Positions 249 through 49,200 of a stretch of DNA of 64,000 nucleotides are shown here, one piece after another. The notes beneath the pieces are model-generated. The model worked only from the letters and a program-made list of their open reading frames with translations. It did no database searches and had not been told where the DNA came from. The stretch lies in the NCBI RefSeq assembly GCF_028858725.1, contig NC_084763.1:9936001-10000000 (forward strand), given 5' to 3'. Made by a program: the position numbers and the translations under genes. How positions within the stretch are numbered: the first letter of the stretch is position 1; each line of letters begins with the position of its first letter. This stretch comes from Colius striatus. Lineage: Eukaryota > Chordata > Aves > Coliiformes > Coliidae.

Positions 249-2212
249 TTAAACATCAGCGACTAGCTTACCTCCCAAGAACTTCCTTAGCGGTCGTTGG
301 TGTTCAAGTCCTTCTCTTCTTGCCATAGGTCTCTTTCTTTCACAATACCCATAGTCACTGTATACAACTCCTTCTTTCTCCTTTGGCTTGTAAACTACAC
401 CAATGTTTTCACCAAGCCCACTCCTAGCTTTTATTTTCTCTTGAGCAGGCCAGCTAATTAATTGAGCCGGGATAACATTTCTAGGTGGTTTCCAAAGCAC
501 CCTCTGGCCAACCTGGTAGAAACTTCCTTTAGTGGGTGTCAAGGTTCCATATGGAGTGGCTTCTTGAATGAAATATTCAATTTCATCCATGTCATCATCA
601 TCATCCTCCTCCTCCTCCTCCTCATCATCATCTTCATCCTCCTCTTCTCCCCTCACAGAGCATTCTCCTGAGTCTTCAACTTCTGATAAACTCTTAGCTG
701 CTTTTTCCTTCAGAGAATGGATTTTTTTGTGACTAGAAGATCTAGGAAAGGCTGCCAGCTTTTTACTTCTGCTGGAAGCCTCTTTAGTCTTCATGGCTGA
801 AGAGTTTTTGACAGCTTGGTCATTCAAGGTGTTCACATGCTCCCTTCCAATCACTTCACCTTCATTAAGGGTCCCACCACTTTTAATTTGCTCTTTCTCT
901 AAGGCCTCTGTACTTTTCTGGAAAGTATACGTGCTCTTCTGAAGCACATAGTCAGGGACAAAATAAGACACTGGAGCATTATCAATTGATGAGCCTTCCT
1001 CTCTAGAAGACATGTCATCAGAAGAAAGACTGAGTACACTCTGATGTTTCCTTTGTGGCAGACAAACATTGTACTGGTAGTTTGTGTCCATACTGTCCAA
1101 GCAAGCCAGCCAACTGTCAGAGGGAACGTACTTCTCAATTGATTCGTCACACCAAATACTTTTGTCCGTTTGACTCTCATTCATTGTGCTGTGGTTTAGG
1201 TTCTGCTTTTTCTGCTGAAGAGTCAAGTTGCTCATTACCTCCATACTAGATGGAAGTAGTCCTGCTTGTTGACTAGAGCTGGGCTCTTCTTGAGAGGTTT
1301 TTAAGCCTGTAGATTTTTTGGAGCTAGGTTTCTTAACTACCACATCCTGTCTCACCACTGTCTTATCTACACTAACAGATCTTGCCAGCTCTGAGACTTG
1401 CACTGCCATGGTTTCACCCGGGGGAGATTTCACCTGCTGACCTGTATTTCCCTGCTTTTCTGCATCCAGCTTCATTTCATTATTTTGGACCTCTCTTTCT
1501 TGTGCAGTCTCAACACATTGTTTTGAGGAGAGAACAGCTTTTCTCTCATCTATGGGAGCTCCTGGCACCATTTTCTCCCCTTCACGAGAGCCATATATCA
1601 TTCCTTCACACGAGCTAACAGAAAACAAGTCACGCTGCACCATATTATCTGGGACTGGTTTACCACTCGCCACATCATACAGAGGGATCGTTTCTTTGAA
1701 GGACTTCCACAGCTGAATGGCTGGAGAGCCATTTCCATATTCTATCCTCACTTCTTCCTTTTCAAAGGCATAGCTTCCAGTAGGAAGATTTCTATACTGT
1801 GTAGAGCTGCAAGGGCTCTTGTTATGAAACTCTCTGTCTACTGCAATGGAAGATCCAGATGAATCTTGTTTCTCTGAAGTACTTTCAGTCTCTGTACCTA
1901 CGCCAGAAGAAACACAGGCCTTATTTCCTACATCACAACCTTTCGTTCCTGTATGGCCATCTTGATGCTTTTTTTGCTTGTTTTCAGGCTGTCTAGGATC
2001 AGTCTGTGTTTCTTTTGTCTCCATTTTTTTCCCAGGGGTACCATAGTGCCTAAATCTTGTCGCATGATAAAACATAGGGGAGGGTGAGGGAGCATTAAAA
2101 TAAGGCCTTCTGTGAATTCTTGCATGCACTGGATGCTGTGGAACAAAAAATCCAGGGTAGTCATGGAGCGCAACAGGATAAAGTGGAAGATACGGATTTC
2201 CACTTCTGAAGC
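249..2212 (-). CDS. BUC: BUC large second coding exon
   Basis: About 1.96 kb of uninterrupted frame follow the acceptor tgtctag|gc. It completes Gly-50 and continues the N-terminal Buc/Velo block (GFRSGNPYLPLYP), then ETQTDP, a long hydrophilic linker, the acidic tract (plus-strand 591-650) and the C-terminal block. A TAA at 251-249 ends the frame. A GAG|GTAAGC donor at 272/271 may instead link to a further exon, which I could not find in the 270 bases that remain. Confidence 0.85.
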
Positions 2213-3096
2213 CTAGACATTGGGAACAACAACAAAAAGTAGTACATATCAGTACATATTCTTTCTGAAAGAAGTCATTCTGGTTAACATTTGCTTGCAC
2301 ACACGGGGACAACTACAAGATGAGACACTTAAGTAAAAACTCCACCTGTCAATGCTTGGAAGCAAATCTGATGCAAAAAAAACATGGAAAAGCTTCCCTG
2401 GACAGCTACACTTCAACCAAAAGTCATTTTTTTTTTTCCTTAGAGAATACAACAATTGGCTTCCTGTACTTTTTTTGTTGTTCTTATTTTATGACTATAA
2501 CATTGTCTTTGTAAAAGACAGCTCCAGATAGAAGTTAACATAGGTATACCATTTACAAGATGTACTTCATATTGCTGTTTCTGTATGGATTTTGAAGTTT
2601 ATATTTATCCATATCTATAATGTGTGCAGGTATGTAACCCCTATATACACACACATAAGATAGCTGCTGGACATATTCTAGAGCTCTGTAGCTGTAGGAC
2701 AACTACTACTAAATATTTTTTGCTCAGTTCCCACTTTCCAGAAACAGATGCTTTCTAGCACATGGGCTACATATTTAACTAACACTTCATAAATCAGAGC
2801 TTTGGCAAGTAAAACGTTAACATTAATTCTACCTGGAGCTCTCAAGAAACTTAACACAAACACACGTTCATTTCTTCTACTCTATCAGTAAGTTACTAAG
2901 CAAAGCTACCACAGACTGCTCTCATTTGCCTTACCTGCAGCAGGCACACAGTATGGACTGTACACATGACTGAGGTACCATGGATTTGGAAAAGGCTGTT
3001 GTTCTGATGGCTGCGCATAAAAAAAGGGTCTGGGGTGGTTTGTGGAATATGATCCACTTTCTGAATTTGAGGCAGTATTCATTTTCTTTTTAAATG
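249..3096 (-). CDS. BUC: Bucky ball/Velo1 family germ-plasm organiser, two coding exons seen
   Basis: Zebrafish Bucky ball and frog Velo1 build the oocyte Balbiani body and recruit germ plasm; that role is inferred here by homology. Coding exons join 3082-2935 to 2212-249 (GTAAGG donor; acceptor after tgtctag), giving about 703 residues, somewhat longer than zebrafish Buc. Residues 1-100 hold the Buc/Velo block: NHPRPFFYAQP near residue 15, then aromatic/proline-rich text with YPGFFVPQHP and RHYGTPGKK. ETQTDP lies near residue 115, a family hallmark. The middle is low-complexity and Ser/Gln-rich. An acidic run lies at about 571-593, followed by a conserved-looking block with YQVGQRVLWKPP and a basic tail. 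The start chosen is the ATG at 3082-3080, just after an acceptor (3096), so a 5' noncoding exon lies upstream. The gene is head-to-head with KBTBD2. There is no internal stop. The C-terminus is uncertain: a donor at 271-270 could splice out the last six codons. Confidence 0.85.
2213..2934 (-). other. BUC intron between the two coding exons
   Basis: A 722-base A/T-rich intron with consensus ends on the minus strand (GTAAGG ... TCTAG). It contains short poly-T and TA-rich stretches but no recognisable gene or repeat element. Confidence 0.75.
2935..3096 (-). CDS. BUC: BUC first coding exon
   Basis: The exon is bounded by an acceptor (tttatctgtttcag just above 3096) and a GTAAGG donor. It has 14 bases of leader, then the ATG at 3082-3080. 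It encodes residues 1-49 and one base of the Gly-50 codon. It carries the aromatic/proline-rich start of the Buc/Velo block, including NHPRPFFYAQP and the tail PYCVPAA. The intron to the next exon is 2213-2934. Confidence 0.82.
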
Positions 3097-4743: not shown

Positions 4744-5257
4744 AATCATAGAATGGTAGGGGTTGGAAGGGATCTTTAGAGATCATCTAGTGCAACCCTC
4801 CTGCAGAAGCAGGTTCACCTAGATCAGGTCTCACAGGAATACATCCAGGTGGGGCTTGAAGACCTCCAAGGAAGGAGCCTCCACAGCCCCTCTGGGCAGC
4901 CTGTGCCAGGCCTCCCTCACAGTGAAATAGTTTTTTCTTATGTTTAAATGGAACTTTTTGTGTTCCAGCTTCATCCCACTACCCCTTGTCCTGTTACTAT
5001 CTACTATAGAAATAAGGGCTGTCCCAATCTCCTGACACTCACTCTTTAGATATTTGTAAATATTAATGAGATCCCCCCTCAGTCTCCTCTTCTCCAGCCT
5101 AAACAGCCTCAGTTATCGCAGCCTTTCCTCGTATGAAAGATGCTCCACTCCCCTGATCATCTTGGTGGCCCTGTGCTGGACTCTCTCCAGCAGTTCCCTG
5201 TCCCTGTTGAGCTGAGGAGCCCAGAACTGGACACAGGACTCCAGATGAGGCCTCAAT
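4744..5257 (-). mobile_element. CR1 LINE fragment, 5'-truncated
   Basis: The plus strand starts with the reverse complement of the CR1 3' end (tcatagaatggtaggggttg). It continues through the 3' UTR into the last part of ORF2, with the typical phrases about 'ctctccagcagttccctg' and 'tccagatgaggcctca'. The element therefore lies on the minus strand, with its 3' end at 4744. The reading frame is broken and the 5' end is missing, so it is inactive. Confidence 0.93.
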
Positions 5258-13575: not shown

Positions 13576-14103
13576 TCACTCAAGTGCAGCCGGTGATCAG
13601 GAGATGTTACCACGAAATCTACCTCAGACTTCGCTTGTGCTCATCCATTCGCTACATGGTAGCTCTCAACAGGAGTTCTACAGACCTTCTTGAAAGTCTC
13701 TGAACAGACTGTGACATCAAGTAAAGCATGATGACCTCATAGTAGGTCAAAGTCCGAAATATCGATTCATCAGTCCGGGAGAACACTGCCTATTTTGATC
13801 AGTGTCACTTCTGAAGGTTTCAGACCTCCTGCTCTTTCTTCTCTGGTTACTTCAGAAACATTCAACTGACCTTTCTCTGGCAAAAAGATTCTGACTTTCT
13901 CTCTGGTCCTGGAAATATTAATGGAATACAGTCATGTCTACCCAGGACGAGAGGCAGATAAATACAGAGTATGCTGTATCCTTGCTGGAGCAGTTAAAAT
14001 TCTTTTATGAACAGCAGTTGCTAACTGACATAGTGTTGATTGTTGAGGGCACTGAATTTCCTTGCCATAAGATGGTTCTTGCAACATGCAGCTCGTATTT
14101 CAG
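13576..14103 (+). CDS. KBTBD2: KBTBD2 exon 2: 5' leader and start codon
   Basis: Acceptor ttcctgctttcag at 13575 and donor AG|GTAAGT at 14103/14104. The first 358 bases are untranslated. The coding part from ATG 13934 encodes residues 1-56 and two bases of Arg-57, the first half of the BTB domain. Confidence 0.95.
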
Positions 14104-17100
14104 GTAAGTATTCAAACTAGGATCTGTTAATTCTGGAAAAATCTCTGATATCTCTTTTTGAGTGCAATATTACCTCCTTGATTAACAGTTAATGTCCTGG
14201 CAGAGTTCAAAAGATCAGCAAAGTAAGTTAAAAAAAAATCTAAATATCATTACTTGCCAGCATCGTAAGAGTAAAATAAACTTTCTAGCATCTCTTGCCT
14301 CCCTCTGGGCAGATCCTGTGTAGTTCTAATAGGAACTGGGTTAAAAAAAAAAACACAGAAAATCCCACTTGTGATGGGTTGTTTTCTTTAGGGAGTTAAT
14401 TGTGTCTGAATTATTAGTAAATTTTTATTCTTCATACATATTCCTTGAATATTCAGTCTTTTTCTTTCCCAAGGTTGGGTAACAAGTATTTTTGAGACTT
14501 GGCTATGGGAGTTCCATTGTTGTGTTTATTAGCTGTAGTGTCTTAGCAGAAGCCTCTGCTAAAAGCAGGGATTGCTGTGCAAATTCATGGCTTCCTTTTT
14601 TGAATCATGTGGTTTTCTCTGCTTAACAAAGAAACCAGAAACTCTTCTCTTGCCTGAGTCTTGCTGCAGTGCAACAGTTTTTTTGGATGTGTGTGGGGTT
14701 TTCTTTGGGTTGTCTTTTCCCCCTAGTGAGAGACTTGCAATTCTGAATTCAGTAGCTCGTGCTTCCCAGGTGTCCTGTTTTTTTTGGCTTTTGAAAACTT
14801 TTTATTAATGAGGTAAATCAAATGTTATTACTATGTGCAGATACCTTCAGAGTAAGTCTTAGATTAGGGACCCTGAATTTTCTGCTGTGATTAATCATCT
14901 TTTGTTGAAAACACAGTGTAATTAACCTCCCTGTATGGAAGGAGTTTTGAATCTTGAAACCAATCTTGGTGACATCCACACGTTTCACCTCCCGGATGCA
15001 CTGTGGAGGGATTATAACTCTTTTTTTCCCTATTTAATCAAGGGAAGATTTGCAAATTCCTTTTTTTTGTTGTTTTTTGCTGTGGTGGGCTCACTCTATG
15101 GAACACTTTCTGAAGCATTTTCTGTGTTCTGTTTGCTTTCATGGTTTTTGGTGTTTAATTTTTTTTGTCAATGATGATGAGCCTGGTAAAATTTTTAGCA
15201 ACAAGTATTCTGTGATAACTAGGTAATGATTATTGCTGTTGGCCTTGTACAGATGACATAGTTTTAACATGTGAAACAACAGTCACTCAAACTGTGGCCA
15301 GATTTCATGTGGGTGGCTAATCATAAGGTTGGAAAGCTGTCACGAGTCCATGTAGCGTGCTGCATTAGAGTAGGTACTCACATCTCTTATTCATATGTTT
15401 ATTGTTTATGGAATGAAGTTTTAGCACTGGTTAAAAGAAGCATCAAGCTTATGGTTTTGTCATGTCTGTTTTCCTTCTCTACTTCAGTTGACAAAAAGAT
15501 GCTCAGCTTCCTAAATTTAGCTTTATTATGAAAAATTGATAGCTCTTGAAGGAGGCTGCAGGGAGAGGAAGAACAGAGAAGCATGATCCACCCATGGTGT
15601 GTGACTGCACCCAGCTTACCTTCCCTCTCACGCAGGTTGCCCTGAGTCAAGATGCTTAGGAGGCAGGGAGATGAGGCTGGGGCAGGAGGGAGTGGGGCAC
15701 TGCCTTTAGATCGAGTACTTCTCTGAGTGGATTTGCGTAGAGAACAGATCTCCATATTCCCTTCGCAGGTGCAGCTGGAGGCAGGACTGTAGGGTGCACT
15801 CATTGTCCTTTCCAGCTTCTGTCATATCTGGTTTCCTAAAAAGCCCCAAATAAAGAGCCTTGAGCTGAATTTCCATGCAACTATTAATACAAATCAATGT
15901 CCCTCACTTTAATAAAATTGTCAGGTATCTGCTTTGTGGTACTAGAATTGGATTATTTCTGAACTGTGGTGAGATTAAAAAAACAGAATGGGCAATAGGT
16001 AGGTAAACCATTATGGAAACAATAACCTTTTCTTAAAGGTGCCTTTCTACTTTTTTCAGGAAGCTATAATGGAGATACTTGCACTTTTTTTTTCTTTAAA
16101 GTCAGATAAGTCTTTTCTGTCACCAATTTTTGTCTGCAAACTTGAATCTTACTGCATGTTACAATGACTGGTATATAAGATGTACTTCAAGGAGTGCTAG
16201 TCCTTGCTCCATTTCTGAGCTTTCTCCTCCCAGAAGAGTGTGCTTTTTGGTGTGCCTTAGCTCAGTCCATGACATAAATCTGTTTTGACAGTCTTTTCTG
16301 GAGGATGTTTCTTCCCATTTATCATCACCTGACAGGAGAAAGTTTTAAATTTCATCATTAAAACTTAAAAATCTAAATTAGACTTCTCTGTTGGTGAACA
16401 CAGAAGAGTTTGCATACATACAAAGTATTTCTACAGAAGTCACTGATGGTACTGTTTTGTACAAATGCTTTATCCTAAATACTAAATTGCTGTAAACAGG
16501 CAACCAAAAAGACTGTTCAGCTTTTGGAGAGTAACCACTGAAGACCTACAAGTGACTGTTGAAGATTATTGTACTTACTGTGGTTGTCTTGCTATGTTTA
16601 TTTCTCCTCAGAGCCATGTTCATGAGTGGGCTGAGTGAAAGCAAACAGACACACGTGCATCTGAGGAATGTGGATGCAGCCACTTTACAAATTATCATAA
16701 CTTACGCATACACGGGTAACTTGGCAATAAGTGACAGCACAGTGGAACAGCTGTACGAAACCGCCTGCTTCTTACAGGTAGGAGTGTTTTGTCGGAGTAC
16801 GAAGTAACTGCTGCCAATCTCTGAACCATTTCTTTCTTTATCTTGTTAAACAGTCTTTTCTGTTTGGTTATTTCAAAATGCTGTTGTTCTGTTTGCTCCA
16901 TACAGGCACCAGTTACTTGCCAGCTAAGTTTCATGCACACATCCCTCCTTGCTTTTTGGTCCCTATTGAGGGTGGAAGTAAAAGAGTGTGTTTGTAACAT
17001 CTGAAAAACTAGTTTCTCCAGTGGACATAATCGTGTCGTGTATGATCAGTATGAAGTAGTCGAGTCACTGCTGTACTTTGTGTATAGATAATACTTCAGG

Positions 17101-18718
17101 CTTTAAGGGTGTTGAACAACACTAAACAGAGGTGCTTGGTGCTTGGCAGTAATACTCAGCGTGGCTTTTCTTTGCGTTACAGGTAGATGATGTGTTGCAG
17201 CGGTGCAGAGAATACCTAATCAAAAAAATCAACGCGGAAAACTGCGTGCGCCTCCTGAGTTTTGCTGATCTCTTCAGCTGTGAAGAGCTAAAACAGAGTG
17301 CTAAAAGAATGGTAGAGCACAAGTTCACAGCTGTGTACCACCAGGAAGCTTTCATGCAACTGTCCCATGACCTACTGATCGATATCTTAAGCAGCGACAA
17401 CTTAAACGTGGAAAAGGAGGAGACTGTTCGGGAAGCTGCGATGCTGTGGCTGGAGTACAACACGGAGTCGCGCTCGCAGTACCTGTCCTCTGTCCTCAGC
17501 CAGATCCGCATCGACGCGCTGTCGGAGGTGACGCAGAGAGCCTGGTTCCAAGGCTTACCGCCCAACGATAAGTCAGTGGTGGTGCAGGGACTCTACAAAT
17601 CCATGCCCAAGTTCTTCAAGCCCCGACTCGGTATGACGAAGGAGGAGATGATGATATTCATCGAGGCTGCTGCTGAAAACCCTGGTAGTCTTTATTCTTC
17701 TGTCTGTTACAGCCCCCAGGCAGAAAAAGTTTACAAACTCTGTAGCCCTCCAGCTGACTTGCATAAGGTTGGGACGCTCGTGACTCCCGATAATGACATC
17801 TATATAGCAGGGGGGCAGGTTCCTCTGAAAAACACAAAAACCAATCACAGTAAAAGCAGCAAACTCCAGGTGGCCTTCAGAACTGTGAATTGCTTTTACT
17901 GGTTTGATGCACAGCAAAACACTTGGTTTCCAAAGACACCGATGCTCTTTGTTCGTATAAAGCCATCCCTGGTCTGCTGTGAAGGATACATCTATGCAAT
18001 TGGAGGAGACAGCGTCGGTGGAGAGCTCAACAGGAGAACTGTGGAGAGATACGATACCGAGAAAGACGAGTGGACCATGGTGAGCCCGCTGCCTTGCGCG
18101 TGGCAGTGGAGCACAGCGGTAGCCGTTCACAACTGCATTTATGTAATGGCACACAACTTGATGTACTGTTATTTTCCCAGGTCAGATGCTTGGGTAGAAA
18201 TGGCTATGCGACAAACAAGTAGGTGTTTTGCTTCAGCTGCTGCTTTTGGTGACAAAATATTCTATATTGGAGGACTGCACATTGCCAGCAATTCTGGCAT
18301 AAGGCTCCCAAGCAGTACTGTTGACGGGTCTTCCGTAACGGTGGAAATCTACGACGTGAATAAAAACGAATGGAGGATGGCAGCCAATATCCCTGCCAAG
18401 CGTTACTCCGACCCCTGCGTCAGAGCCGTCGTCATCTCCAACTCCTTGTGTGTCTTTATCCGAGAAACCCACATGAACGAGCGAGCCAAGTATGCCACCT
18501 ACCAGTACGACCTGGAGCTCGACCGCTGGTTCCTCAGGCAGCACATATCGGAGCGTGTGCTGTGGGACTTGGGGAAGGACTTCCGGTGCACCGTAGGAAA
18601 GCTCTATCCGTCTTGCCTTGAAGAGTCCCCGTGGAAACCTCCAACGTATCTCTTCTCCCCAGATGGAGCTGATGAATTTGAGCTGGATGGGGAGATGGTT
18701 ACTTTACCACCTGTATAG
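13576..18718 (+). CDS. KBTBD2: Kelch repeat and BTB domain-containing protein 2, CUL3 adaptor
   Basis: Coding segments 13934-14103, 16612-16777 and 17183-18718 join in frame at GT/AG sites to exactly 623 residues, the human length. KBTBD2 is a BTB-BACK-kelch adaptor for the CUL3 E3 ligase; in mammals it targets the PI3K regulatory subunit p85-alpha and tunes insulin signalling (known for the family, not seen here). The BTB domain spans about residues 20-130, with [20 protein letters not shown] and [12 protein letters not shown]. The BACK domain covers about 135-235. Kelch blades start near 315, with IAGGQ (~319), YAIGGD (~383) and FYIGGL (~473). The protein ends [12 protein letters not shown]. 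The start ATG has G at -3 and agrees with the known N-terminus [10 protein letters not shown]. It is convergent with AVL9, as in human. Confidence 0.97.
13604..13742 (+). promoter_or_regulatory. Three upstream ORFs in the KBTBD2 leader
   Basis: Upstream ATGs at 13604 (29 codons, stop 13691), 13656 (15 codons, stop 13701) and 13728 (4 codons, starting ATG ATG, stop 13740) all close before the main ATG at 13934. Such uORFs commonly lower translation of the main frame; an effect here is inferred. Confidence 0.7.
14104..16611 (+). other. KBTBD2 intron 2
   Basis: A 2.5-kb intron with GTAAGT donor and a pyrimidine-rich acceptor (tttatttctcctcag). It has poly-T patches. The minus-strand open frame at 15399-15803 shows no family resemblance. 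Nothing else is recognised. Confidence 0.85.
16612..16777 (+). CDS. KBTBD2: KBTBD2 exon 3: second half of BTB domain
   Basis: 166 bases finish Arg-57 and encode residues 58-112, from [10 protein letters not shown] to YETACFLQ. Donor CAG|GTAGGA. The junctions keep phase with both neighbours. Confidence 0.96.
17183..18718 (+). CDS. KBTBD2: KBTBD2 exon 4: BACK and kelch domains
   Basis: One long terminal coding exon after acceptor tttgcgttacag. It encodes residues 113-623, from [12 protein letters not shown] to MVTLPPV, then TAG. It holds the BACK domain and all kelch blades without an intron. GC is raised in parts of the exon compared with the flanking introns, as is usual for coding sequence. 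Confidence 0.97.
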
Positions 18719-31200: not shown

Positions 31201-34200
31201 GCTTACAATAACAAAATTTAAACAATAAAGCTTTACTCTGTCACTTGACAGAAGGCCAAGTCCCAGCAATTACTCAACCTTCGATTTCTTATGAACTACC
31301 TGTAAGGTGTCTTCTATTTGCATACCATATATTAACAATCATTTCACACTGAGGCAGAGGCACCTCTTTCTAGTAATATACACAACATGAAAAAAAAAAA
31401 AGATACCTTAAGCAGACTAAAACCACATTGTGGATCCTAAAGGAAAACCTTTGTCAGACTAAAGCAGCTGACAAAGCAAAAAGCAAACAGAACTCCCTGC
31501 AGTACAGTAGTAAACTGCAAACATGCTAAACAATACATACTCACAGAAAATAGTGTTACCAAGCCTGGCATCATCTAGTCTTTGAGTGAAAATACACATA
31601 AACCAATCTAAAGTACGGAAGATGCAACATGGAAGAGCCAGCTCTCCCTATCCTTGTCAATGGCACCCTGGACACAGCTATTCCTTGGAAGCAGTTGATA
31701 AAAAGCAGAACCATCTGAGGACAATTCTTGAGGAATGACAAACTTTCTACAGCTAGAGACAGTCAGCAATCAACTTCAAGAAGTTTCACTTCTCCTGACT
31801 CTGGTTGTACTTTTCTTCATAAATCTACAGCCCAAGATTAGAGGAAGGTATTGAACAACAGCAATATTGGGTTTCTGTACTTACAGAATAAGTCTTTAAA
31901 GTTTCCCCCTCAGAGCTTTATAGCAGGAACAAGGAGGAGATTGTAATTGTACAGAATGGTGGTGCCTGACTATGTATGCTAGGAGTTCTCCATGTTCATT
32001 GCTTACAAAAAAAAGAAGAAAAATAAATGGAAGAAAATCAAGAAGTTGCCTTACCTAGAATTCACCTCTGCAAGAGCTGGATGCTTGTTGCTATTCCATA
32101 CTCTGTAGTTGTGGGTATTTTTCCAGGCTGCTACAAATGCTGTTCCAAAGTCTGACAAAGTCTTTTCATTGTCTGATAAATTAAAATAGAGATAATTTGT
32201 AGCAATGGAGATGAGTTGCTTTTCTTCTTACAAAGAACAAGAAATTTTTCCAGGCTCTTATCAAATTAAAGGCAATTAAAATTCTAATACTAAGAACTGG
32301 GCACTTCAAATATGTTTTATTACTTTAATTTTAAGCTATTGCAAATACACAATGCCAGGACAAAAGGGAAAAAAAGCTTAAAAATGACTTCTTATTTTTA
32401 ATTCATTTATAAAGCTCAAGGTAAAGAGCTCAACTAGAGAAAAAGTAATTCAAATGTGGGCTTCTTCAGTTATTCTCTGAGCAAAGACAGGAAAGGGGAG
32501 AGAATGAACACACAGCAATTAAGAACAAAACCATCATCTGCATTGCTCTTGGTCAGATAGTACAGCAAAGCCCAGTGTATGTTGCTACTCATTTAAATCT
32601 AGTAAACCTCAAATACACTGCAAAACTGCAGTATGAACTAACATGAATTCAACTTCTAATAATGCCTCCTTTAAAACACTGAAGAGTGTAAGAAATAATT
32701 TTAGAGCTGGCCAGTGAAGCAGTATGAGTTTCCAGATAAAAATGACATTTCATATCAACAAGGCAACCATCTTAAAATACTAGTGCTATCATACAAAGAA
32801 CTTGGCATCTTCCAGACTTTAAAATCAAGTTCTCAATCCCATGTTTTCTCACATGTATCACAGAACAAGATCTGAATTAGTTAATTGATGCAAAGAGGGA
32901 ATAATCGTGACGAGACTGAAACTAAGAGGGTTCGTGCTAGGCAAACTAAACATTTTCCACAAACAAAACACTGATTCTTTCTGTTATCTTCATGCACTAA
33001 AGGTTGGAATATAGATAATTCCCTCTGAGTTAAGACATAAAAATGTTGAGGTCCAGAAAACATAAGCTTATCAAGCTTCTAGATGAGACTTTTCACTTTT
33101 ATGAATCCCTACTTAAGACCTTGTCAGGAAGGGAAAAAAGGAATATCCTAGTAAAACTTCCTGAAGACAGCCACTTAACTTCATGTGTCCTTGAACCCAA
33201 TTAGTTCCCCAAAATTAATGTTGCAACAGAGTCTGTATGACACCCATGTTTGTAAAAGTCTCATCATTTATGGAGTTTCAGGCACTTCTACTTATGAAGA
33301 AAGCTTAATTAAATCAAGAAGAAGGAGACAATCAAAGAAGAAAGCGCCTGTAGGGCTGTGAAATAAGAATTACTAATAAGGAACAACAGGCTAGCCAAGG
33401 ACAAACCAAAAGAGCAGCCTAAAATGAAATGTAAGGTAGAGGGAGATCTAATGATAGGCCACAAGTTTAATGTAACAGAGCAAATGCTTATTGCATCCAC
33501 ACTCATCTCAGTACCTACACAAGGTATCTGTCCTACCTGGATGCAGCACAGCAGCAAGCAGTGCATGAAGATAAGCACTGAACTGAGCCCTGATCCACTC
33601 ATCTCCTCCTTCCCATCCAGTGCCATCAAGGAAAACATCATCTCTGTTCTCAGTTACGTGCTTCACCAGGTAATCTGCAAAACGTAGGTCAGCAGTGGTT
33701 GGGTTCAGGATCTTACGGAGTTCTGGATCATGGATTTGTACAAGAGCATCTTCTATCTGTTTGAAATAAGTCCAAGGATAAACATTTACCTAAATAAAAC
33801 TGCTAATATATATTACTATATATCACTATCTAAATCATCCCCTTATATCAAGACGAAACAAATGGCCAAGGAAATAATGACTTAAATGTTCTCAGAAAGT
33901 AAGATAATGCTCCAATATAATCAGAATCTGGTCATCTTCTTGCCAGAGTAAAAGCTGCTTGCTTGACAGAATTTGTCAGAGGAAGTTTGGTGCTTATATA
34001 TATCTTCCTAGAGGCTCTAGTGCTTCAGTTTATTAAGTTAGTTACCTACATGTAGCAATCTTAGGTTACTAAATGCTGATTACATCGTTGTATCTATTTT
34101 CTAGAACTCAAAACAGTGTTTTCTTAGGTACTATTTCAATATTTTGATTAAACCAGAAGGAAGTCAATAGCAATGTGCTTTATTATCCTACTGTGTCTGT

Positions 34201-37200
34201 TTCTCAGCTGCAAGCACTTGTTTTTGAAGACTTTATTACAGAGTTATGAAAAAAGCCTGTGACAGGAATAGTAAAAGCACACCAGCAACAAAATTAACTT
34301 CAAGAAGTGTCCTGTAGATTCAAATACTGCATATAAGAATATACAGAAAAATGGGTATTAGTTTTGCACAGCTTGTCTAACCTCATCATAACAAATGATA
34401 CAAATTTAATTAGCTTCTGCATTTAAGGATTTATTTCATAGGGAAGTATTAAAAATTTGAAGATGACTGTGAAATGTTAAAGCTATATTTAAAATGCAAT
34501 CTCTGCTTCCCCCTCTACCCCCTCTCGCTCTAGTTGAGGAAGTTCAAATGCAAAGATTCATACCTCCACAATCGCATCACTCAGGTGTTTCTGCTGACGG
34601 AACAGGATATTGGTGGCTCCCGCAACAAAGCCACGGACCGTAACATCTGACAGGAGATGATGCTGCTGCAGTGCCATGTATGGCAAACAAAGGTACCCCT
34701 GAAGAAACAGAGATACTTAGAGGGTTAACATAAGGCCAAAAAAAAGGAAAAAATCCACTTAGATTCAGAGTTACTCTTACCATCACACTCCACCCAGTAT
34801 GAACCCTGGTTATTACAGTTTCAGCCAGAATTATCTATGGTTGTGCTACATTACACCTGCAAAAGCAAAGCCACCAGATTCCACAGGAATTCATTTTCAA
34901 AAGGCGATGTTGCCTTTCAGTCTCAGGACTGAAACTGAAACACAATGCAAGGGACAAGAATCACATGTGTTTATAAGGCAACAGACTAAGCAGTATAAAA
35001 CAAGAGTGAGGTCTCAGGTCAGTTCAGAGACAAGAAGTCAGAGATAAAGATTTGTATCTCTGCTTTGCATACCACAATGTCTTCTGTTAGTGTGGGGCAC
35101 ATCATGCACGAAAGCTACAGATTGCTGTCTGCATTTTGTAGGTGGAGATTTCCAGGCTCCAGAGACAGCCATCGGTTTTTGATAAGCATATGTGTGCCTC
35201 CTTTAAGAAAGAGCAGGATAGAAAGCAATACACTGTGCCTTTTAGCCACTCACAGAATCTTAGGGGTTGGAAGGGACTTTGAAAGATCATTTAGTCCAAC
35301 CTCCACAGCCAGAGCAGGACCACCTAGAGTAGGTTAATCTAGTGTCTTATATTCCAAATAAAAAACCCAAACCCATACACTTTGAAAAAAAAGCTTTGAG
35401 GGAAGTCATCAAGAGATCATTGAGAAGCAGCTATAGGTATTGCAACTTTGTTCTTGAATATAGGATGAAGACATCCCTGAAGTCTAATTCTGCAGTTTAA
35501 CTTCAGCTGGTCAATTGCATAAAGCACAAAGCAATTTATTCACTAGTAGGAACCCAGAAGTGCTAACGGCATACTGGACAAAGAGCACATGCACTTCATT
35601 GTACACTTCATGGTAGCTGGAAACATATGGAAGAAAGGAGCACAACTATTCCCCTTTGTTATATTAAGACACAGGGATGGCTTCCCAGATGACAAGCGCT
35701 TATCAGTTGAAAACAGCCTGTGTCAAAGGAACAATAGTGCTTTCAGAGGAAACATCAACCTAAAATTGAAAAACTTCCAAAAATATGGCTTAAGGAGCTG
35801 CCAAAGGAAGGTTTAATTTCTGTATACTTGAGTAGCAAAGGCCTGGAAATCTTTCACTATTTATCAGCTCCCAAAGTAAGTCTAACAACTTTTCACCTCT
35901 GTTAAGGTAGTCTGTTCTTTTTAAAACAGGGCAAATAAAACAACTATTAGATCTTTCAGAACTGGTGCTAAATGACCCGTTTTTCTTTTTACTCTGGTGT
36001 ACCTGGATACAGTATTATGCCATCTGGCAAAACCTCCTCCCATTCAAATTTGTCAGATTTCACCTCTCTACGGCATGGCATAAGCCAACCCTGAGATGAG
36101 AGCTCTAAAAGAGATTTAATGCTTCCAAGTAAGTGGTTAAACTATAACTTCGAATCACATTTTTCTGATAACTTAGAGATGGAAAGCCTTTTCTGCATTA
36201 ATCATATTGGATGAACTCAGATGAATAGTGGCTTTGTGGAACAGAATGTAAACATGTGGAAAATGTCAGCTTCCTTAAAATTGTTTACTTTTCCATTTTG
36301 TGAGCTTAGAAGCAAACTAAGTTTGGACTCGTAGGCCGCCTTATCAATGATTTTCTTCTTGCTTTCAATCTAGTATGGTCAATAGAACTAGACAACATAC
36401 AATTTACAGGCCATTCTTTTCATTAGACAGACCATAAGGACAAACACCAGACTGCAGATCTTTGTTGAAAAAGCATTTCCAACAGCGACACGAGGCAATA
36501 CAGGACAACCACATTTGAGCTGCTCACTGGGCCCACACAGTGTACCATTTCCAATGACAGTCATTGTGAGAAGCTCACACGCAATCATTAAATGCAGTGT
36601 TCTGCAAGGAAATGCAAATAAATACACCTCCAAAGGGAAAAACACCACTGAACCTCATCAGCTTAAGGAAACAAATTTGAATCTTCTACTTTCTAGGCCA
36701 ATGTTAATCCAAAGGGTTATTACATTAAACACAAAACAAAGTATTTATGATGTTACTTCATTTATTGATAAAAGTATCTTTAAAAGGGACACATTTTCCT
36801 ATTCTTTAATGGAAAACCAGCTCTAGGAAATGTATTGCTTGCTACTCGACAATACCCATCAGAGTTCTTAGAGAGACCCTGGAATACCCACAGTTCAGTT
36901 GGGCATCAGTGGAAGCTGAAAATTTGTCAGCTCAGCACCATGAATAGGGAAAAAGCCACAAACAATCAGAAAGATTTACATAAAGAAAGGTGAAATTATA
37001 CATACATACACATTGTGTGTGTATATATATATATATAAACACATTAATATATGGATATGCACATTTACAAATACACACACATATATATATATATATAAAT
37101 TAAAAGGGGAAAACACAGGCTTAGGTGTCAGCTAAGATATACCTTTGGGAATCTTAGTTTAGATTAAGGTATGTGAAGTACTTAAGGAGTAAGTACTCTG

Positions 37201-40200
37201 GCATTGCCCCATGTAGGTTAGATGGGCAATTCTTCAGAGTAAACCAGTAGTTACTGACACATACCAACTGTTTACCACAGTGGGGCTGCATGTTACCATC
37301 ATGTAGCATTACAAACAGTATATAAGTATATATATGGGAGAAAAGTGGAGTGCATGGGTGCATGCATTCATCCCTGTCAAGACATACACTCACGCTTCCC
37401 ACCTGCCCTAGGAACAAACACCTGCCAGAGACTGTACTTACATGTTTTGTAGTAACCTACTGCTCATTTGGAGTAGGGTGACCCAAACTACTAGCCACTT
37501 CTGAAAAACTGATGTCTTTATGAGTTACTAGGTATCAAGAACAACATATTTACCTTTGTGAAAATAGCCAGTGGCATACCATACTGGTCCTCTTCTAACC
37601 CAGATATCAGTCCTGGAACAAGCACCGTGTGTCCTGTATTTGCTTGGGGCTGCACAGTAATTGGAAGGCTTTCTGAGCTCATGCCTGTGCTTGGAAGATT
37701 TTCAGCCCGTTCTGGTGCTGTATTTTCACGTTCTCCTTCTTTCAAATTAGACTCCTCCAAAATGCTAGGATCTAAGGTCTCCCAGTCACTCTCGGAAGAC
37801 GCTGGAGAAGCGTGGGAAGGAACTTTCAGGTGCTGCACAGTACCATTGGAGGATTGAGCTCCATTACAAGTCTTCTCTGATTGGGAAAAAGGCACATTTG
37901 CTTTTTGACCCTCTCGTGTATGGTTTCCTGCCATCTTCCTGCCTCCTTTTCCCATTCCTAAGCTTGGATTTGAAGCATCAGCAGCAGACACAGAAATAGA
38001 GTCATCTAACCGTGGCGTATTTTCCTGCAAGCCCGCATCCTCTGATATGCTCTTTCTTGGCCTATACTGTGAGCAGTCAGTAAGACCATGTTCAATCATA
38101 CCTGGAAAGTGACAGCACATGTGAGTATCAGCACCCCATTAGAAATTTAAGTGATGTTTGTTACAGAAAATGAACAAAGTAACTCATGTGCATAGTGGAA
38201 ATAATTTATTTTAAAACATTGCCTTGGGGAGAGGGACAGTGTTAAAAAAAACACCAAAAACCAAACACTTTATCTCTTAAAGAACCTGCCTCAAGTTATT
38301 TCCCTTGAGAAGACTGGTTAGAAGTTAAGAATCAGCAAGGTTAAGGAATTGGGGTGAGGAATGGGATTGTTGTTTTTTGTTGGTTGTTTTGGGTTTTGGT
38401 TTATTTTTCCTTTTTAGAGAGCCAATGTAGAAGGAAGAGAGAGGTTTGTAACTTGACAGGAATGTGTGACCTATTCAGAGTCCCATTTCTGTTACCTACA
38501 GGCAATACAGAAGATAGAGTGGCTCTGATTAAGCACAACAAATAACTCAGAGTGCAAGTAGTAAGTATTAGATGTATATGTAGTACACAGACATGTATAA
38601 AAGCCACCCATTTTTCAGGCAACATATCAACATAATTCTATTGTCACATAGTTGTTTTCCAAATAAAACAGTACAGTCAGTCTCAGTTATCACCAGCAAG
38701 CATACAAAAAGAAGTCCAAACTTCTCTTACCAGGAAAAAGTGATAGGACAGTCATCAGAGCTCCCACCAACCTATTTACTGGAGAAATATAAAACAGCAC
38801 CTGGTGGCAGAAGGGAGGGGGGTGGGGGGAAGAGAGTGCATGAGAGGAAAGGACAATTAGAGAAGAGGAGAGAATGAGAAAAATAAAAATCACACTTAAG
38901 CCTCACAAAGTCAGAACACACAAACTATTCAAGACATTGCTTTTATGTTCTTGTAGAAAGTCTGTTTACCAACAAAAGCTCTAGCAACAGTTCAAAGTAA
39001 ATATTTAAATCCATCTATTCTATCATTATATTTTATAATATTTGTAACAGATACTTGTCAGTCATTCAGATGCTTCTGTCAGTCACTCATTTTTTTTTTC
39101 CCCTAATTGCTCCAGTTACCAAATGACTGACAGAAAAAAGTTGTTTCTGGCACGATACATGAATTCTTGTTCATTTGTAGTACATTAAATTCTCTGCTAT
39201 AAATCAAAGATGACAAATAATCTCCATCCCAGAATTCTAACAAAAACCTATGCAAAAACACCTAAGAAAACATGTTAAAGACAAGCAGATAAATGGAAAC
39301 TAGGATAAATGCAGCATGCCTTCATTACAGGCATGTCTCTACAATTAAAAAAGGTAAGATTGTTTTGAAACAGAAAACAGGACTGATATTAACTTTAGTA
39401 AAGCACTTAAGGCATAACATGGAAAACAGAACCTGTTTAATTAAATCAGAGAGACTGGGATTAGTAAATTACTTAGGAATTCAGAAGGAGGGTGTCAAAG
39501 GCTAGCAAAGAAAGAACAAACAAGGCAGACTGAGTTTTACTACTGTAGTTGCTTCAGGGAGGAGGAAAGAAAAGGAAACCAATAAACAATCAACCCAAAC
39601 GAAAACAAAATACCCCAAAAGCCAACTTGTTTAACAAGGCTATTTCTACATCTTCAATGTAGAAAATACTAGCAAAAATTACATAAGCATTACAAGGAAA
39701 TGAACAATGCAAAGGAACACAGAATGATCTAACTTCAGGACTTTGCAGACCAGTTTAATAGGTTATGGTGACATTGAAACTGCAAGTTTGAAGACCTAGA
39801 CTTACTAAAAGACTTCTGCTGTAAGCTAGGAAGACATTTTAGGTTAATGAGTGATGAATAACTCATATTCCACCAGTATTTGCAAGTCTACAAGCCAGTG
39901 AATTGATGGAATCAAGAAAAAACGTCATTATTTAATGATACCTCAGCTAGAAATAGACTGTATATTATCTTGTACAAATGTTTCTTTTTGCTATAATCTG
40001 AGTTCAGCCTGACCTAACAGGTACAGCTCTTTACATTGTGTCCTGCAGGTGTTCGGGCAATTCAGGTCTGAAGAGCACTTCTAGCACTCGTTTCCTATTT
40101 GCATTATGTGTATCCTTTCCTATCTTATTACAGTATGTTAAGTTTCTCCACTCTTAATCCCATTTTACTTACTCTGTCTGGGATAGCTATTAAGGCAGAG

Positions 40201-43200
40201 CATTGACAGAAGACATGGACAAAACAGAAGCTGAGACAAACTTATACACCAATAAACAGCAGTTATTTTAGCATAATTTCCCAATTTATATATGGATGAA
40301 AAGTTGTTGATACAACTTCAGATAATTTATTTTTCACTAGTATACTCTACATAGCTTCGTATGAACAAAGTAACAACTGCATTTCTATTTCAATTACCTC
40401 CCTCAGCCTACAAACATTACCTTTTTCTCTAGAAGAATCAATTTAAAAAGGATCAAGACCTGAAAAGACACAAAAAGGTAAAACATGGTGAGTGAACCAG
40501 TGCCATTTATCAAAAACACTGTGCAAGCTTATTCAAGATTTTATATTAATGGCTGCATAACTGTCAAATACATTTGCCCAGTGAAAATCATTGTTCCAAC
40601 ACCCTTTCTCCACCTGAGCACTCATTTTAAGATAGCATTTGAGATGCACAAAGAAAAACCTGCACAAGCAAGAATCATGTCATTTCGATCATAAAAAGCC
40701 TGTGAGAAAGAACATGTTGTGTACTTCCAGAACTTTGAGAAACAGTAAACTGCATAAACATAAAAAAAGAGTTCCTCCATGGAAATACAGAATATAATTC
40801 AGCAAAGAATCAAGAACATTCACACCACCTCATTTTAGGCACCTACAGATGAGACATTTACATCAGAAGTGTCTGTCCAGACTCCCTACACTCAGAAGAA
40901 AAACACGAGCACTTCTGGAGCATGACCAGCAGACACCTCAAGTTAAAGAAAATAAGTTCTACCCCAAAAATGTACTAAGCAAGTGCACATATCACCATGA
41001 AATCCAGATTCTTGAACTTGTTACCTTGATGCCTCTCAGTTAATAAAAGATTCTAAATGCTACTTGCACCTTAACTACAGGATAGACAATTTCAGTAGTC
41101 ACTAGGAAAAAGAGCTGCAAGTTCCCTCAGGTTCTGTGTGGCAGAAGCCACAAACATTACAATATACAGGAAAAAATGCTCCAAGTTGTGTCTGCATGGA
41201 CTTCAGCAATATTCTTTTACCACAGTCATGTAATGAGAGGTGGGAAACAGAAATAAGACTGTAACTGAGATACCACTTGCACTCTGGGACAGGACTAAAG
41301 ATGTCACACAAACCTAGAAATCTCCAAGGAATCCAGCAAACAAGCAAAACCTCTGCCTGGAACTTACTTTCACTGAAGTTACGTAGGCAGAAGAGGAAGG
41401 GAAATCAGGAGGCTGTAAGCAGAAGTACTTAAGAAACATCCTTCTCACCCCTAGCTCAGGTATGTCTAGACAAGTTTATTTTTCAGTTCCTTACAATGCA
41501 TTTTACTCCACGACATGAGTGCTGTAGTTTATATATCCATCAGAGAACACCTACCTTGTGTCTGAAGTGAAGGACAAGATCCCGAGGAGACAGACCTGAG
41601 ATACCAAAAAGAGAGCAATTATTAGAGTTTAATAACTAGTAGAGATACTAACTTGTCACCATTCTTTGGAGGAAGGGGACATTCATTATGAATTCTATGT
41701 GAACTGGGTTATTTCAATAGCAGAACTCAAAAAAAATTTTGTGCTTGAGTTAAATCTACAATAGACACTCATAACATGAATAGTCATGCTCTGTTACTCC
41801 TGTTAGCTGCCACACAGCATTATGGAATCACCAGAGTAAATACTACACTGTGGATTCAGAAATGAAATAGTCAGAATCAATTGGAAGATATCCCAAGTAA
41901 CAAGCAGATCAAAGTCGGAGCGCCCTATACCATCATATAGTTCCATATAAACTGTCTCCCAAAAACAGCCAAGCAGTTGCTTTTCAGACTGTTAGGTCAA
42001 GAGGTAACACAGCTTTCACCCTACAACTGACTCCTATTGACATTTATTTAAATCCATTAATAAAGCAATGCATAAGAGAATACTGTGCAGGCACATAGAC
42101 CTCTGGTGCTTAATCTGTTAATGGGCATAAACAAATTGGCTCAGGAAGAGAACATGCTGATTAGAGTAACATTATCTCTGCTGCTTGTACAACAAAAAGT
42201 CACTTACCAAGATAAACTTGTGACCCTTCTAACAAAGTACTGCCCAAGGAACTATTCATATGATCATAAAGTTCCTGTAAAAATTAGAAGGAAAAAAAAC
42301 CCAGAAGCTGTTAATGGTGCACGGTCACACAAAATCCAGAATAAATCAAATTCATCTATTCAAGGTTTTATTCCAGAAAGACAGTAAAATTTTACTACTG
42401 GAGTCAATGGAGATAGAGACTGACAATCATGCTCATTGTCACATTTCAGATATGGGTAGTTCATTTAGTTTCCACTGAGTGATTACAAGAGCTGAATAAC
42501 TGAATGACCTTTGCAAATACAATATCTGAGCACTAATCGAAACCATTGCAGTTCACAGCCGTACACTGAAAGCTCGGTCCCGGGTGGCTATTGCTTAAAA
42601 GTTACCTTTAGAATTGATATTTTTGAGAAGTCTTTTTCTTCAAAATACGCATGTGTAATGAGTTGCAGCTTTGCCTGAAGTAACCCATACAAAGGCTTGG
42701 AAGAAAAACAAACACAAAAGCAAGTGAAAAAAACTTATTTAGTCACTCATTTTTAACTTCAATCTTCTCCCATTCTTATCTTGCAATACAGACGTATCAT
42801 ACAGAGTTCATGGAGGGGAAGTCCTTACTTCCTAACTGAAGTACTCTGACTCCAGTAAAAGTCTTTTCTTCAGCTTTAAGCACAGGAAGAATTTCTGTTC
42901 CCTGCCTGGTGACTAGTAGCTTTTTCTAAACAGGTAGAAACACAAAATGTTTCTTCAAAACAAGGGTAGCTGTACACGTGACTATCAGAATCTCTTTCAC
43001 AGTTGTCAATAGCCACTCTCTCCAGTTATTATAATGGCCAAACCCCTCGATCCTACTACAAGAAATACAGGTAGCAGCACTTAAGAATAATCAAAAGTGC
43101 AAATAGATATCCCAGACCCTGACAACAGGCAGACATTTTTACAATTACTCTTACAAGGAGATACCAATTCAAGGCAGCTCACTCAAATGCCACAACCTTC

Positions 43201-46200
43201 CAATTCAATTTGACTTCAGTGTTTTGTTACCCTTAGCAATTTAAAGACAGATGTTTGGAACCAAAAGTTCCAAATAAGAATATGGAAACCAAATAATTTT
43301 TTACTATGTTACTTGAAAGCATTGAGAGTTAACCAAACATCCTTACCAGCCGACTGAGAACACAGACACTCTTCTGTACTGTCTCTCGGGTGATGTCTGC
43401 TTGTCGTACTTTTAACACCTAGGAAACAGAAGGATTGCAGTACTGTTACCCACACACAACAACTTCAAAAAGATTTCTTTCATGGCTCAAGTTGCCACAT
43501 ATCACCCTGCTATTTAAACAAAATCCTAAACCTGACTGCCTTCAATGGTGGAATATCCAAATCATGCAACAGTATGCCCATATCTAGTAAAAATGGTCAT
43601 AGCGTTGGTACGTCAGACTTGTGTTCACATCTCACTGTGCACAGCAAAGATCCCCTTACAGCTGTGATCATAGGCAGAGGACTGTTTAAAAGACACTAGC
43701 ACGAGAAAAAAGGCAATAGGCCTGGAAAAGGCAATAGCATTTGACCTGGTAATATAAAAGAAGCCACAACACGTCACTCTAATGTTGTCTGCAAAATGGA
43801 CCAGGTTTAAAAGTCCTTGCCTAGAAATTCCTTGCTTTATAGTTGAGGATTTTCACTGAGCCACACATAAAACAGAGGAGGTATCATCACACTGTCATAA
43901 TCAATGACATTCTCAGTTAGACCTAAGAGTTTCAGCACTTAACAGAAGACCTAGAAAGCGGGAGGGGTGGGGGAGGTGTTGCACAGAAATACAGTCAAGT
44001 GATTAACTTCATTGTACAAACCAAAATGTGTGGACTGCAGCCCACACATCAAAAAGACAGATGGAAGGAGTGCTAGAGCTCTCATATGAAACACATTGCT
44101 TTATATTCTATTTGTTCATTTAAAACATTTATCTTCTTAATTGGTTACTGAACTACATAAACTGGAACCAAGAGAATAATAAAGCCAAGTTATTGCATAG
44201 TTAGATAGAGCAAGACTCCAAATCACAGAATACTGTGAAGACTGGCTGCAAAGATAATGAGTAAACTAAAATCAACATGGAGTTAGTTCAACAGAAAAAG
44301 GAATTAAAGTCTTCACATGTAAAATTTCTCCTACAGCATACACAGGAAACTGAAATATAATCAAGTATGAACGGTAAAACATAATTTCATTTGTATCTTC
44401 TAAATAAAAGACATGTAAAATGCAAATCCACATGACACTCCAAATTCATGGCATTTCATTGGAAAAAGGGAGTAATTTGTAAAGAAATTAGTAATAAATT
44501 TCTCAATTCTAAGTGCATAGATCATACAATCTTTACTACTTTTGAAAATATGGGTAGATTCTAGTAGATCAAGTACGTAATTTTCTCAGTGTGATGAGGT
44601 GCACACTTTAACTGTCATGAATTGTTCAGCTTGACCACTCAAAGTTGACTAGCAGTAAGCAACTACAATGAATGGGAAGATTCTAGTCTACTCTGCAAAT
44701 GTACATTTGGCAAAGGAAGTGGATTAGGAGAAAGATCCCAGGAAATACACTAAAATTCTTCCTAGGCACACACACTGCAGAAATTTCATCTTTTTCCACC
44801 CAAGAGGCCTACTTTCTGGAAATACAACTTGGCACCCCAACAGATTGTCAGCTTCATTTTGCTACTTGATGCTGATACCTGGATTATCTCTCAAGATCCA
44901 AAACATACCTTTCAATTGCCTTGCACATTTCAGGAGATCACAATATGCTTGCTGATGTAAGGGAAAAATAGCTCCCAAGTTCTGTGGCTACCTACTGTGC
45001 ACATTCTCATAGATTCTTAAAGTAAGCTGATCATGCAGTTTGATAGTTGGTATAATGCAAGCCACTGAAATTTAGGGCTGTTAATGCATCCAGCCTAGTA
45101 TTTCATTAAAAAAAGTCATAACTTGAATAGTTACCTTTGCTTCAATCTGCCTATAGCACGAGACTCCATATACTGTGGTTTGATCCCCGCATCTCGGTGG
45201 CAAATGGAAAAACACGGTATCTATGAAAAAGAACAGGCTGTTTTAGAAGTCACTAAGAAGAGTTTAGTATCTTTATTTTCAGCACCACTTACTTATAAAA
45301 AGTTTACTGCTGATAATCCTGGCACACTTATTTCACGAGATTTGAAAAAGAAAAAAAGTAATTTGTAAAGCTATGCCTGCACCTGAACTAGTTTCCAAAT
45401 TCATAGAATCTCAGAATGGTAGGGGTTGGAAGGGACCTTCATAGATCATCTACTCCAATTCCCTTGCTAAAGCAGGTCCACCTAGATCAGGTTGTACAGT
45501 AACACGTCCAGGTGGGTTTTGAAAACCTCCAGAGAAGGAGACTCCACACTCTCTCTGGGCAGCCTGTGCCAGGGCTCCCTCACCTGAACTCCAAAGAAGT
45601 TTTTTCTTATGTTAAAGTGGAACTTTTTGTGTTCCAGCTTTTGTCCATTACCCTGTGTCTTGTCACTGGAGACCACAGAAAAAAGTGATGTCCCAACCTC
45701 CTGACACCCACCACTTAGATATTTGTAAATATTAATGAGACCTCCCCTCAGTCTCCTCCAGACTAAACAGCCCCAGTTCCCGCAGCCTTTCCTCACAAGG
45801 AAGATGCTCCAGTCCCCTGATCATCTTGGTGACCCTGCGCTGGACTCTCTCCAGCAGTTCCCTGATCCTCTTGAGCTGGGAAGCCCAGAACTGAACAAAG
45901 GACTCCAGATGAGGCCTCACCAGTGCAGAGAAGAGGGGGAGAAGAACCTCCCTTGACCTGCTGGCCACACTCTTCTTGATGCATCCCAGGATGTCATTGG
46001 CCTTCTTGGCCACGAGGGCACATTGCTGGCTCATGTTTAGCTTACTATCAATCAGGACTCTCAGTTCTCTCTCTGCAGAGCTGCTCTCCAGCAGGTCAAC
46101 CCCCAGCCTGTACTGGTGCATGGGGTTGTTCCTTCCCAGATGCAGGACTCTGCACTTGCCCTTGTTGAACCTCACGAGGTTCCTCTCTGCCCAACTCTCA

Positions 46201-49200
46201 AGCTGATCGAGACCTCACTGAATGGCAGCACAGCCTTCTGGGGAATGAGCCAGTCATGGAAGAGTCTCCAGCTGTGCTAATATGGATATTTTGACAATAG
46301 TCTCATGTTCAGCCTGATCAAGCTCCTGTAAGCCCACTGAAAGCAGGCACACTGCTTTCGCACTTCAGTATGAAGGAGCAAAGACAAGGTGTATAGTTGG
46401 AGTGTGATGCCACTAGGATGTAAATCCAATGAATATGGGAGAAAAAAACAACAGAGGACAGCTACAGTTGAAAGATTAGAGCAGCTGCTAGCACTACCGA
46501 GGTTGATATCCACACACCAGCACCACTATGCTAACAAAAAGGATTTGTGAGTCCTTGTCTCACACAAAACAATTACTGTCTCTGTGCAGGTGTGACAAAA
46601 GAAAAAAAATCTCTTACACATGACCAGAGAAGAGATATTGTGGCTTGAGATACACACACACTCATACACACACTTGCTACTACTGCAAAAAAAGTTGCTA
46701 CATCCTGAGTAAAGAAGAGGATATTATAACCATGGTTAATTGTCTTTCAAAACATGATTGAAATCTGTTTTGAAACCAATAATGGATTTGTTTGCCTCAC
46801 AGTAACAAAATGAACAGTAGAGACAATCCCATATGCATGAAGTCCAACAGAAAGAGTGACTGTTTCTAACAAAGCTTACTCCCTTTAACAAGTTTCATTA
46901 TGTTATGAAGATCACTCAGGGTTTTAAAAAGCCTTTAAGACTACTTCTCACACTAAATCATCCCCTTGGTGAAAATGCAACTATCAATGGGAATTAGTTT
47001 AAAACTTAAAAAAATAATCTAGTAAATTTGCAGTAAATGTTACATAACTATGATCTGAAACATATTTGTTTCAAGTTCATGTGTACTCTTGCCTATAAAA
47101 CACAAGGCTGTATATCAGTTTTCTTGCCATGCCTTTTTTTTTAATGTCTTTTTTTTTCTCACCAAAAATATACATTGATAATATTTTAGTGCTGCAATAA
47201 AAATGCTTCAAGTTTAGCATTAACTGGGATGGTACTGAGCCAAGAGAGAAAAGGTAAGGGCAGCTGTATAGGATATTCCTAGCTTTGAATGTAGCCTGCT
47301 TCTTGTTAAGTATTTAACAATGCAGAAATTGAACAAAAATTATGACTCAGAGCAGAATCAGAGACTCTTAACTGCTGCTAGAAAGGGGATTACTTTGATG
47401 TCTTCCTTTGCTTCCAAATGAGGTCTCTGGAAACTGGAAAATTAGGAAACTAAGGACATTAAGTAAAAAAAAAAAAAAATAGTAGTATTAAAGAGTTTCT
47501 GTGATTTTGCTGCTTTAAGTGACTTCCTTGTTCACTGCTCTGTGGAAAAAAAGATGAAACAACTGAACATGCATATAAATGTCACAGCAATGCTTATTTG
47601 TCAGCAGTTCAATTCGAAGACATAATTGCAGTACTAAAAAACCCCAAGTCAGAGACTGCAGAGAACTTGATCTTAACACTGGAGCAAAGGAATCCTTTTA
47701 TCTTCATTCTGCTGACAAACACACTAAAGCTCTTGTTTCCACCCTTTACACTTGCTGGTTTTCAAAATATGTCATTCTACAGACATTGGATGACTTGAAG
47801 GTTATTCTAAGGATCTCTAAACTAGTAGAGGATTAAAAAAATCATAATGACTATATACCTTATACAGATGAGTTTTAGAACTTCAGTCTTCCCCTACCTC
47901 AAAACTGGATTAGATTTTACTCAAGACTTCATTCCTGCTTCAAAGAATTTCTGAGAAGCCTGGTAGCCTTGTTTTGTGCTAGGACTAAATGGAAGTAGTA
48001 TTTTATTGACATATGATTTCTTGATGTAGGAGGTACACCTTTATGATCTACTTTCACTCTAAACTCTGAAGCAATACACTGACAATGTATCTTGCAGCTT
48101 AAACAAAAAGTACAAGAAGTTTAATAGTGAAAAAAAAAATGTTGACCAACTGTTCAGATACCAGGATTTTTCTTTTGGTTGCAGGAGAAATAGTACATCA
48201 AACTTCCTCTCTCATTTCTTACCTTCTAGATAGTTGTGAGCACCATCCGGTAAGGCAAGAAATGGCAAGTATTTCCATTCCTCTGGTAAACTGTGGCTGT
48301 CATGTCCTTCTCCAGGCTTTAGAGGAGGATAGGAGAATTCAACCTAAGCAAACAAAACCAGAGGGGAGGCAAAGAGAGAATATATTACTGTTACCAAACA
48401 AGCAAGTCTCTGTGATTCAGCCTAGCACCTTTCCTTCAGGAATGGTAGGAAATACAGTTTTTCTTCCTACTAGCACCCTTTGTTTCTTTCTCCAAAGCAC
48501 CCATGGACTGGCTTGTGTGTGGTCTGACAGGCCATGGGCAGATTTGGCTTCCACAGTGTTTCCATCCAGCCTAGTATCTTTTCCTCACAAGAAAGAGGAA
48601 ACGGATCTTCACACAGAAAACATCACCAAGCAGCTGAACACCTTCTCCATCTGCTGCTGTCAGCAGGAGTCATTGTTGGGGTACATATTTCTCAAAATCA
48701 GATTTGGCTTTTCAGTCTCTCAAGTGCCCATGACTATGTAACACATGCCAGCCTCTCTTTTACCCTACAGATGCTGAATGATATCAGAAACTACTCATGG
48801 TAAAATACTGCTTTTAAATATTTTTCATGTCCCTGACTGCAATGCATTCAACACACTGGTCTAAAGTACCTTGTTTGCCTTTCCACAAGAAATCCTGCTT
48901 TTCAATTTTGCCTTTCATTTATTTCTCAGTTACCTCTTTTTCCTAGAAACAGGGATAATCTTTCTATCCCTCCCACTGCACTACCTGTCTACCACATATC
49001 CTCCTCACCAGCATCTTCACAGTACTGTCCTTTCACCTTCTTTTCCCATGAGGATCTCTCTGGGTTTCCATCCACTTTCATGAGCTCATTTTTCAAGACA
49101 TGTACATCTTAAATTACTGAATAAAATCTCTTTTACACAAATTTATAAGTGAAAGAAACTGTTTCAAAACACTGCAACTTCTCTTGAAGAACATCTAGCT

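Follow-up and report, generated by a model that had tools for sequence, protein, structure and literature searches.

Organization of the locus

The window analyzed here, 64,000 nucleotides of the Colius striatus genome (contig NC_084763.1, hereafter C7, C7:9936001-10000000), opens on a minus-strand gene that is very probably the bird ortholog of Bucky ball/Velo1 (Buc), apparently intact and built of five coding exons that encode 791 residues. Within the window lie coding exon 1 (2935..3082, minus strand; residues 1-49 plus one base) and coding exon 2 (272..2212, minus strand; through residue 696 plus one base), separated by intron 1 (2213..2934, minus strand), a phase 1 intron whose donor (CAG/GTAAGG) and acceptor (TCTAG/GCT) define the 2935/2212 junction. 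A TTTCAG acceptor stands directly upstream of the ATG, and a 5′ UTR exon ahead of coding exon 1 is thus likely. The original prediction, made from the letters of the window, had described a 703-codon frame open across this splice, and a minus-strand reading of the joined exons bears this out: from the ATG at 3082 to the TAA at 251-249, the frame is open throughout. The stop-to-stop frame of exon 2 spans 687 codons, whereas resampling the region 500 times under a first-order Markov model gave at most 179 on the same strand; it is thus no product of chance.

Buc is arranged head-to-head with KBTBD2, and both KBTBD2 and AVL9 lie on the same side of it. The KBTBD2 coding exons found are all on the plus strand, at 13934..14103 (the first found), 16611..16777 (the second, with an approximate start), and 17183..18718 (the last, with the stop). 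This last exon matches KBTBD2 chains in the PDB over residues 111-623, which confirms the adjacency to KBTBD2 that had been proposed from sequence. Five matches to the AVL9 domain, which are all five in the genome, fall on the minus strand at 33547..48346. On the other side of Buc is a gene with an FKBP domain, marked by a cluster at C7:9887436-9898701 that holds 4 of the genome's 22 FKBP-domain matches; from human gene order, it is probably FKBP9. A CpG island at 5800-7300 (GC 0.737, CpG observed/expected 0.91) occupies the space between the divergent Buc and KBTBD2 genes and is a possible two-way promoter shared by the pair. Another, at 60300-61300 (GC 0.701, CpG observed/expected 0.82), has a position that would suit a promoter for the minus-strand AVL9. 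Reading frames at approximately 4787-5311, 45485-46214, 51580-52095, and 55529-55960 resemble the end of the reverse transcriptase of CR1 retroelements, as would fit a bird or other reptile.

A position next to kbtbd2 and avl9 has been described for the family in elephant shark, fish, and most tetrapods (PMC5080839), and the location of Buc in Colius is conserved accordingly. When the exon 2 protein was searched against the whole genome (1.21 Gb in 191 contigs), a single match was returned among the best 7 candidates scored, a depth at which a very diverged paralog could escape; within the 124 kb examined around the gene, we found no second Buc copy.

Family identity of the predicted protein

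The family test compared the predicted protein with printed fragments of Xenopus Xvelo, namely a published motif and a set of decoded primers (PMC3827131). The printed motif is ETKETQT (Xvelo residues 115-121), and the primers decode to MNTTAPPP, SSPGRRT (108-114), DPRQQECA (122-129), SRDEGSS (445-451), and KQLNGKL (773-779). Against the Colius protein, the fragment covering Xvelo 108-129 scores 79, with 300 shuffles reaching at most 44, and SRDEGSS scores 30, with 300 shuffles reaching at most 26. Two of the six Xvelo fragments thus exceed every one of 300 shuffles, and these two anchors are collinear in the two proteins. The other four, including the C-terminus, give weak or chance-level scores that were matched by 18, 69, 94, and 170 of the 300 shuffles.

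The anchors lie in exon 2, as ETKETQTDPRQ at residues 114-124 (115-125 in Xvelo; PMC3827131) and as SREEGSS at 452-458 in place of the SRDEGSS of Xvelo; an acidic run follows from residue 570, and WKPP from residue 623. The first anchor falls in the region where the N-terminal BUVE block, residues 23-136 in zebrafish, comes to its end. ETQTDP and WKPP, named beforehand as hallmarks, are both present, but the placement of WKPP at the C-terminus does not hold, as residue 623 of 791 is internal. The spacing beyond the second anchor is also informative: 333 residues follow it in the 791-residue model and 328 in Xvelo, a near-equal length, as against 245 in a 703-residue model. The expected aromatic/proline-rich block of low charge is present at the N-terminus by composition, with residues 1-125 containing 23% F/W/Y/H, 17% P, and 5% D/E.

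Xvelo differs in its total length of 779 residues, in its KQLNGKL end, which does not recur at the predicted Colius C-terminus, and in having a known short splice form (PMC3827131). Zebrafish Buc, at 639 residues (PMC6219760, PMC8533965), is shorter than the protein predicted here. General searches returned little: when the two Buc frames were scanned against Pfam, three matches came back, none of which reached the curated cut-off, and a PDB search with the exon 2 frame gave no relative at E 0.1. For comparison, the stretches reported as common to chicken and zebrafish Buc are only 134 and 96 residues long (PMC9546911).

The Buc/Velo1 identity assigned to this gene is thus supported by the two Xvelo anchors, the conserved neighbors, and a match to a chicken primer. 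That primer comes from a chicken transcript labeled “similar to velo1”, a label dating to 2007, for which RT-PCR primers were published and which was listed as up-regulated at stage X (PMC1894632). The site of the forward primer lies at 1640..1659 (minus strand), in frame; 18 of its 20 bases match, and of the two that do not, one changes E to D and the other is synonymous. For comparison, 13 other primers from the same paper have 4-6 mismatches at their best sites in the window. A possible site for the matching reverse primer, at 1424..1443 (plus strand), is oriented so as to yield a product of 236 bases, but with 6 mismatches in 20 (14/20 matching) it is one of five equal sites in the window, and we therefore consider it weak.

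The 3′ end of the gene

The original prediction had taken the TAA at 249..251 (minus strand) as the end of the gene, and assigned it two coding exons. Just before this stop, however, stands a strong donor, GAG/GTAAGC (GTAAGC at 266..271, minus strand, with the intron beginning at 271); on an approximate donor matrix, it is equaled or bettered at 14 of the window's 6995 GT sites, both strands being counted. We inspected the next 10 kb of genome beyond the window for downstream exons, and three more predicted exons, all in phase and on the same strand as Buc, were placed at C7:9935283-9935158 (exon 3), C7:9933654-9933532 (exon 4), and C7:9932571-9932534 (exon 5, a last exon of 12 residues). In the resulting five-exon model, all four introns are phase 1, and the coding sequence of 2376 nt including the stop encodes 791 amino acids (88.86 kDa) in a predicted frame that is free of stops.

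Exons 3-5 were initially chosen by eye and were then subjected to a systematic exon scan. Over 4.77 kb downstream, internal exons that are in phase and 120 nt or longer begin at just two acceptors, those of exon 3 and exon 4; among 300 resamplings, 2 produced two or more acceptors of this kind. The donors are uneven, with scores of 7.84 (exon 1), 6.41 (exon 2), -0.46 (exon 3), and 1.16 (exon 4), the last two being weak. Consequently, a scan at a donor score of at least 1.0 recovers exon 4 and misses exon 3, and a looser scan recovers both. A candidate cassette exon of 65 nt at C7:9934938 was rejected, as it would disrupt the phase. Of all parts of the predicted model, the 12-residue exon 5 is held with the least certainty.

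An indication of gene size comes from chicken Buc (LOC420748; protein XP_040518588), whose cDNA is given as 2379 nt and whose Venus fusion is printed at 116 kDa (PMC9546911). Because 2379 is a multiple of three, and because the fusion less a 27-kDa tag leaves approximately 89 kDa, we infer that the 2379 nt are coding sequence. If so, the chicken gene agrees with the Colius model in length to within one codon, as it does in mass and at the forward primer site (PMC9546911, PMC11557578, PMC1894632); the differences observed are the primer mismatches, 2/20 forward and 6/20 reverse. The length match supports the predicted exon chain but does not single it out, since 5 of the 27 possible chains total 790-794 amino acids.

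Taken with the good donor at 271 and the in-phase exons downstream, the size match with chicken indicates that the TAA at 249 most likely lies inside intron 2, and that the final seven residues and stop of the 703-codon frame are most likely intron 2 sequence. We nevertheless weighed the reading in which the gene ends at 249, with two coding exons and a 703-residue protein as its sole product or as an isoform that retains intron 2. The frame does stay open as far as 249, exons 3 and 4 have weak donors, and the tail of the 703-residue model, KFLGGKL, resembles the KQLNGKL end of Xvelo with a score of 21, a value reached twice in 2000 random draws of 20 residues; the same score is, however, also reached in 68 of 1000 shuffles of the whole protein. 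The 703-residue model has a mass of 78.6 kDa compared with approximately 89 kDa for chicken Buc, falls well short of the Xvelo spacing beyond the second anchor, and leaves unused both the strong donor before its stop and the predicted exons beyond it. On mass, anchor spacing, and downstream exons, we set aside 249 as the true end despite its Xvelo-like tail, keeping it as an improbable rival to the five-exon model. Less probable still, to the point of being a long shot, is that two Buc proteins are made, one of 791 residues and one of 703, the shorter of which would retain intron 2 and stop soon after KFLGGKL, without the basic C-terminal segment. Of the two Xvelo splice forms, self-interaction is described for the long form only (PMC3827131), and a two-tailed Buc, if true, would be a bird parallel to this pair. 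Under the favored five-exon model, the claim of an intact copy stands in so far as the coding frame is predicted to be unbroken up to what is probably its true end; the placed end and the two-exon structure are not confirmed.

Implications for germ plasm and germ-cell specification

How the Colius protein might act can be sketched from published work in zebrafish, Xenopus, and chicken, on the assumption that it behaves like its relatives. In such a scheme, Buc mRNA would be made in the ovary, and the aromatic/proline-rich N-terminal block of the protein would drive condensation and bind RNA-binding partners such as Hermes. In Xvelo, the first 114-121 residues are reported to localize the protein to germ plasm, and the N-terminal region binds Hermes (PMC3827131). 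A central motif would bind and activate Vasa, as zebrafish Buc residues 372-394 are reported to do (PMC8533965); our guess for its counterpart is the stretch at residues 399-420. In this way, Buc may concentrate germ plasm, initially in the Balbiani body and afterwards in the first cleavage furrows. Chicken Buc, characterized in 2022 and 2024, forms insoluble condensates, has been localized to the Balbiani body and to cleavage furrows at early stages, and shows overlap with the Vasa homolog (PMC9546911, PMC11557578); its published structure model is mostly of low confidence (PMC9546911). We note in passing that the title of PMC9546911 prints LOC420478 where its text has LOC420748; as the 2024 paper gives 420748, the digits in the title look transposed.

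The original prediction had further held that an intact copy would support maternal specification of germ cells in this lineage. As an argument, this is weak: turtles and non-primate mammals are reported to retain buc while relying on induction (PMC5080839), so an intact Buc is compatible with either mode. What supports a maternal role in chicken is the published data on expression and localization, not the intactness of the gene, and the 2024 chicken paper describes the mode in birds as still debated (PMC11557578). That debate, together with the reports of intact buc in several inductive mammals and in turtles, and of salmon buc genes expressed outside the ovary (PMC5080839), lends some weight to a reading in which the Colius gene is genuinely orthologous to Buc but has lost its part in germ-cell specification in this lineage, being retained for some other function in the ovary or soma. 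The company that chicken Buc keeps with the Vasa homolog in the Balbiani body and early furrows speaks against it, and we judge it unlikely, though the most serious of the alternatives considered. That the copy has decayed or is not expressed is, by comparison, scarcely credible, given that its introns and ancestral location are retained, that no stop interrupts 791 codons, that two substitutions, an E-to-D change and a synonymous one, separate the forward primer site from that of chicken, and that it is the sole genomic match to its own exon 2 protein among the best candidates scored.

We therefore return to the reading of an intact Bucky ball/Velo1 ortholog with five coding exons. Among the titles listed by a broad literature search naming other birds, with subscription journals outside its scope, none concerned Buc in a bird other than chicken. 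The Colius gene does not settle the mode of germ-cell specification in birds, a question under direct test in chicken; inductive animals, too, carry an intact copy. Colius Buc is an ordinary bird ortholog with a corrected gene model, and the corrected exons are useful for the design of probes and antibodies that cover the true C-terminus.
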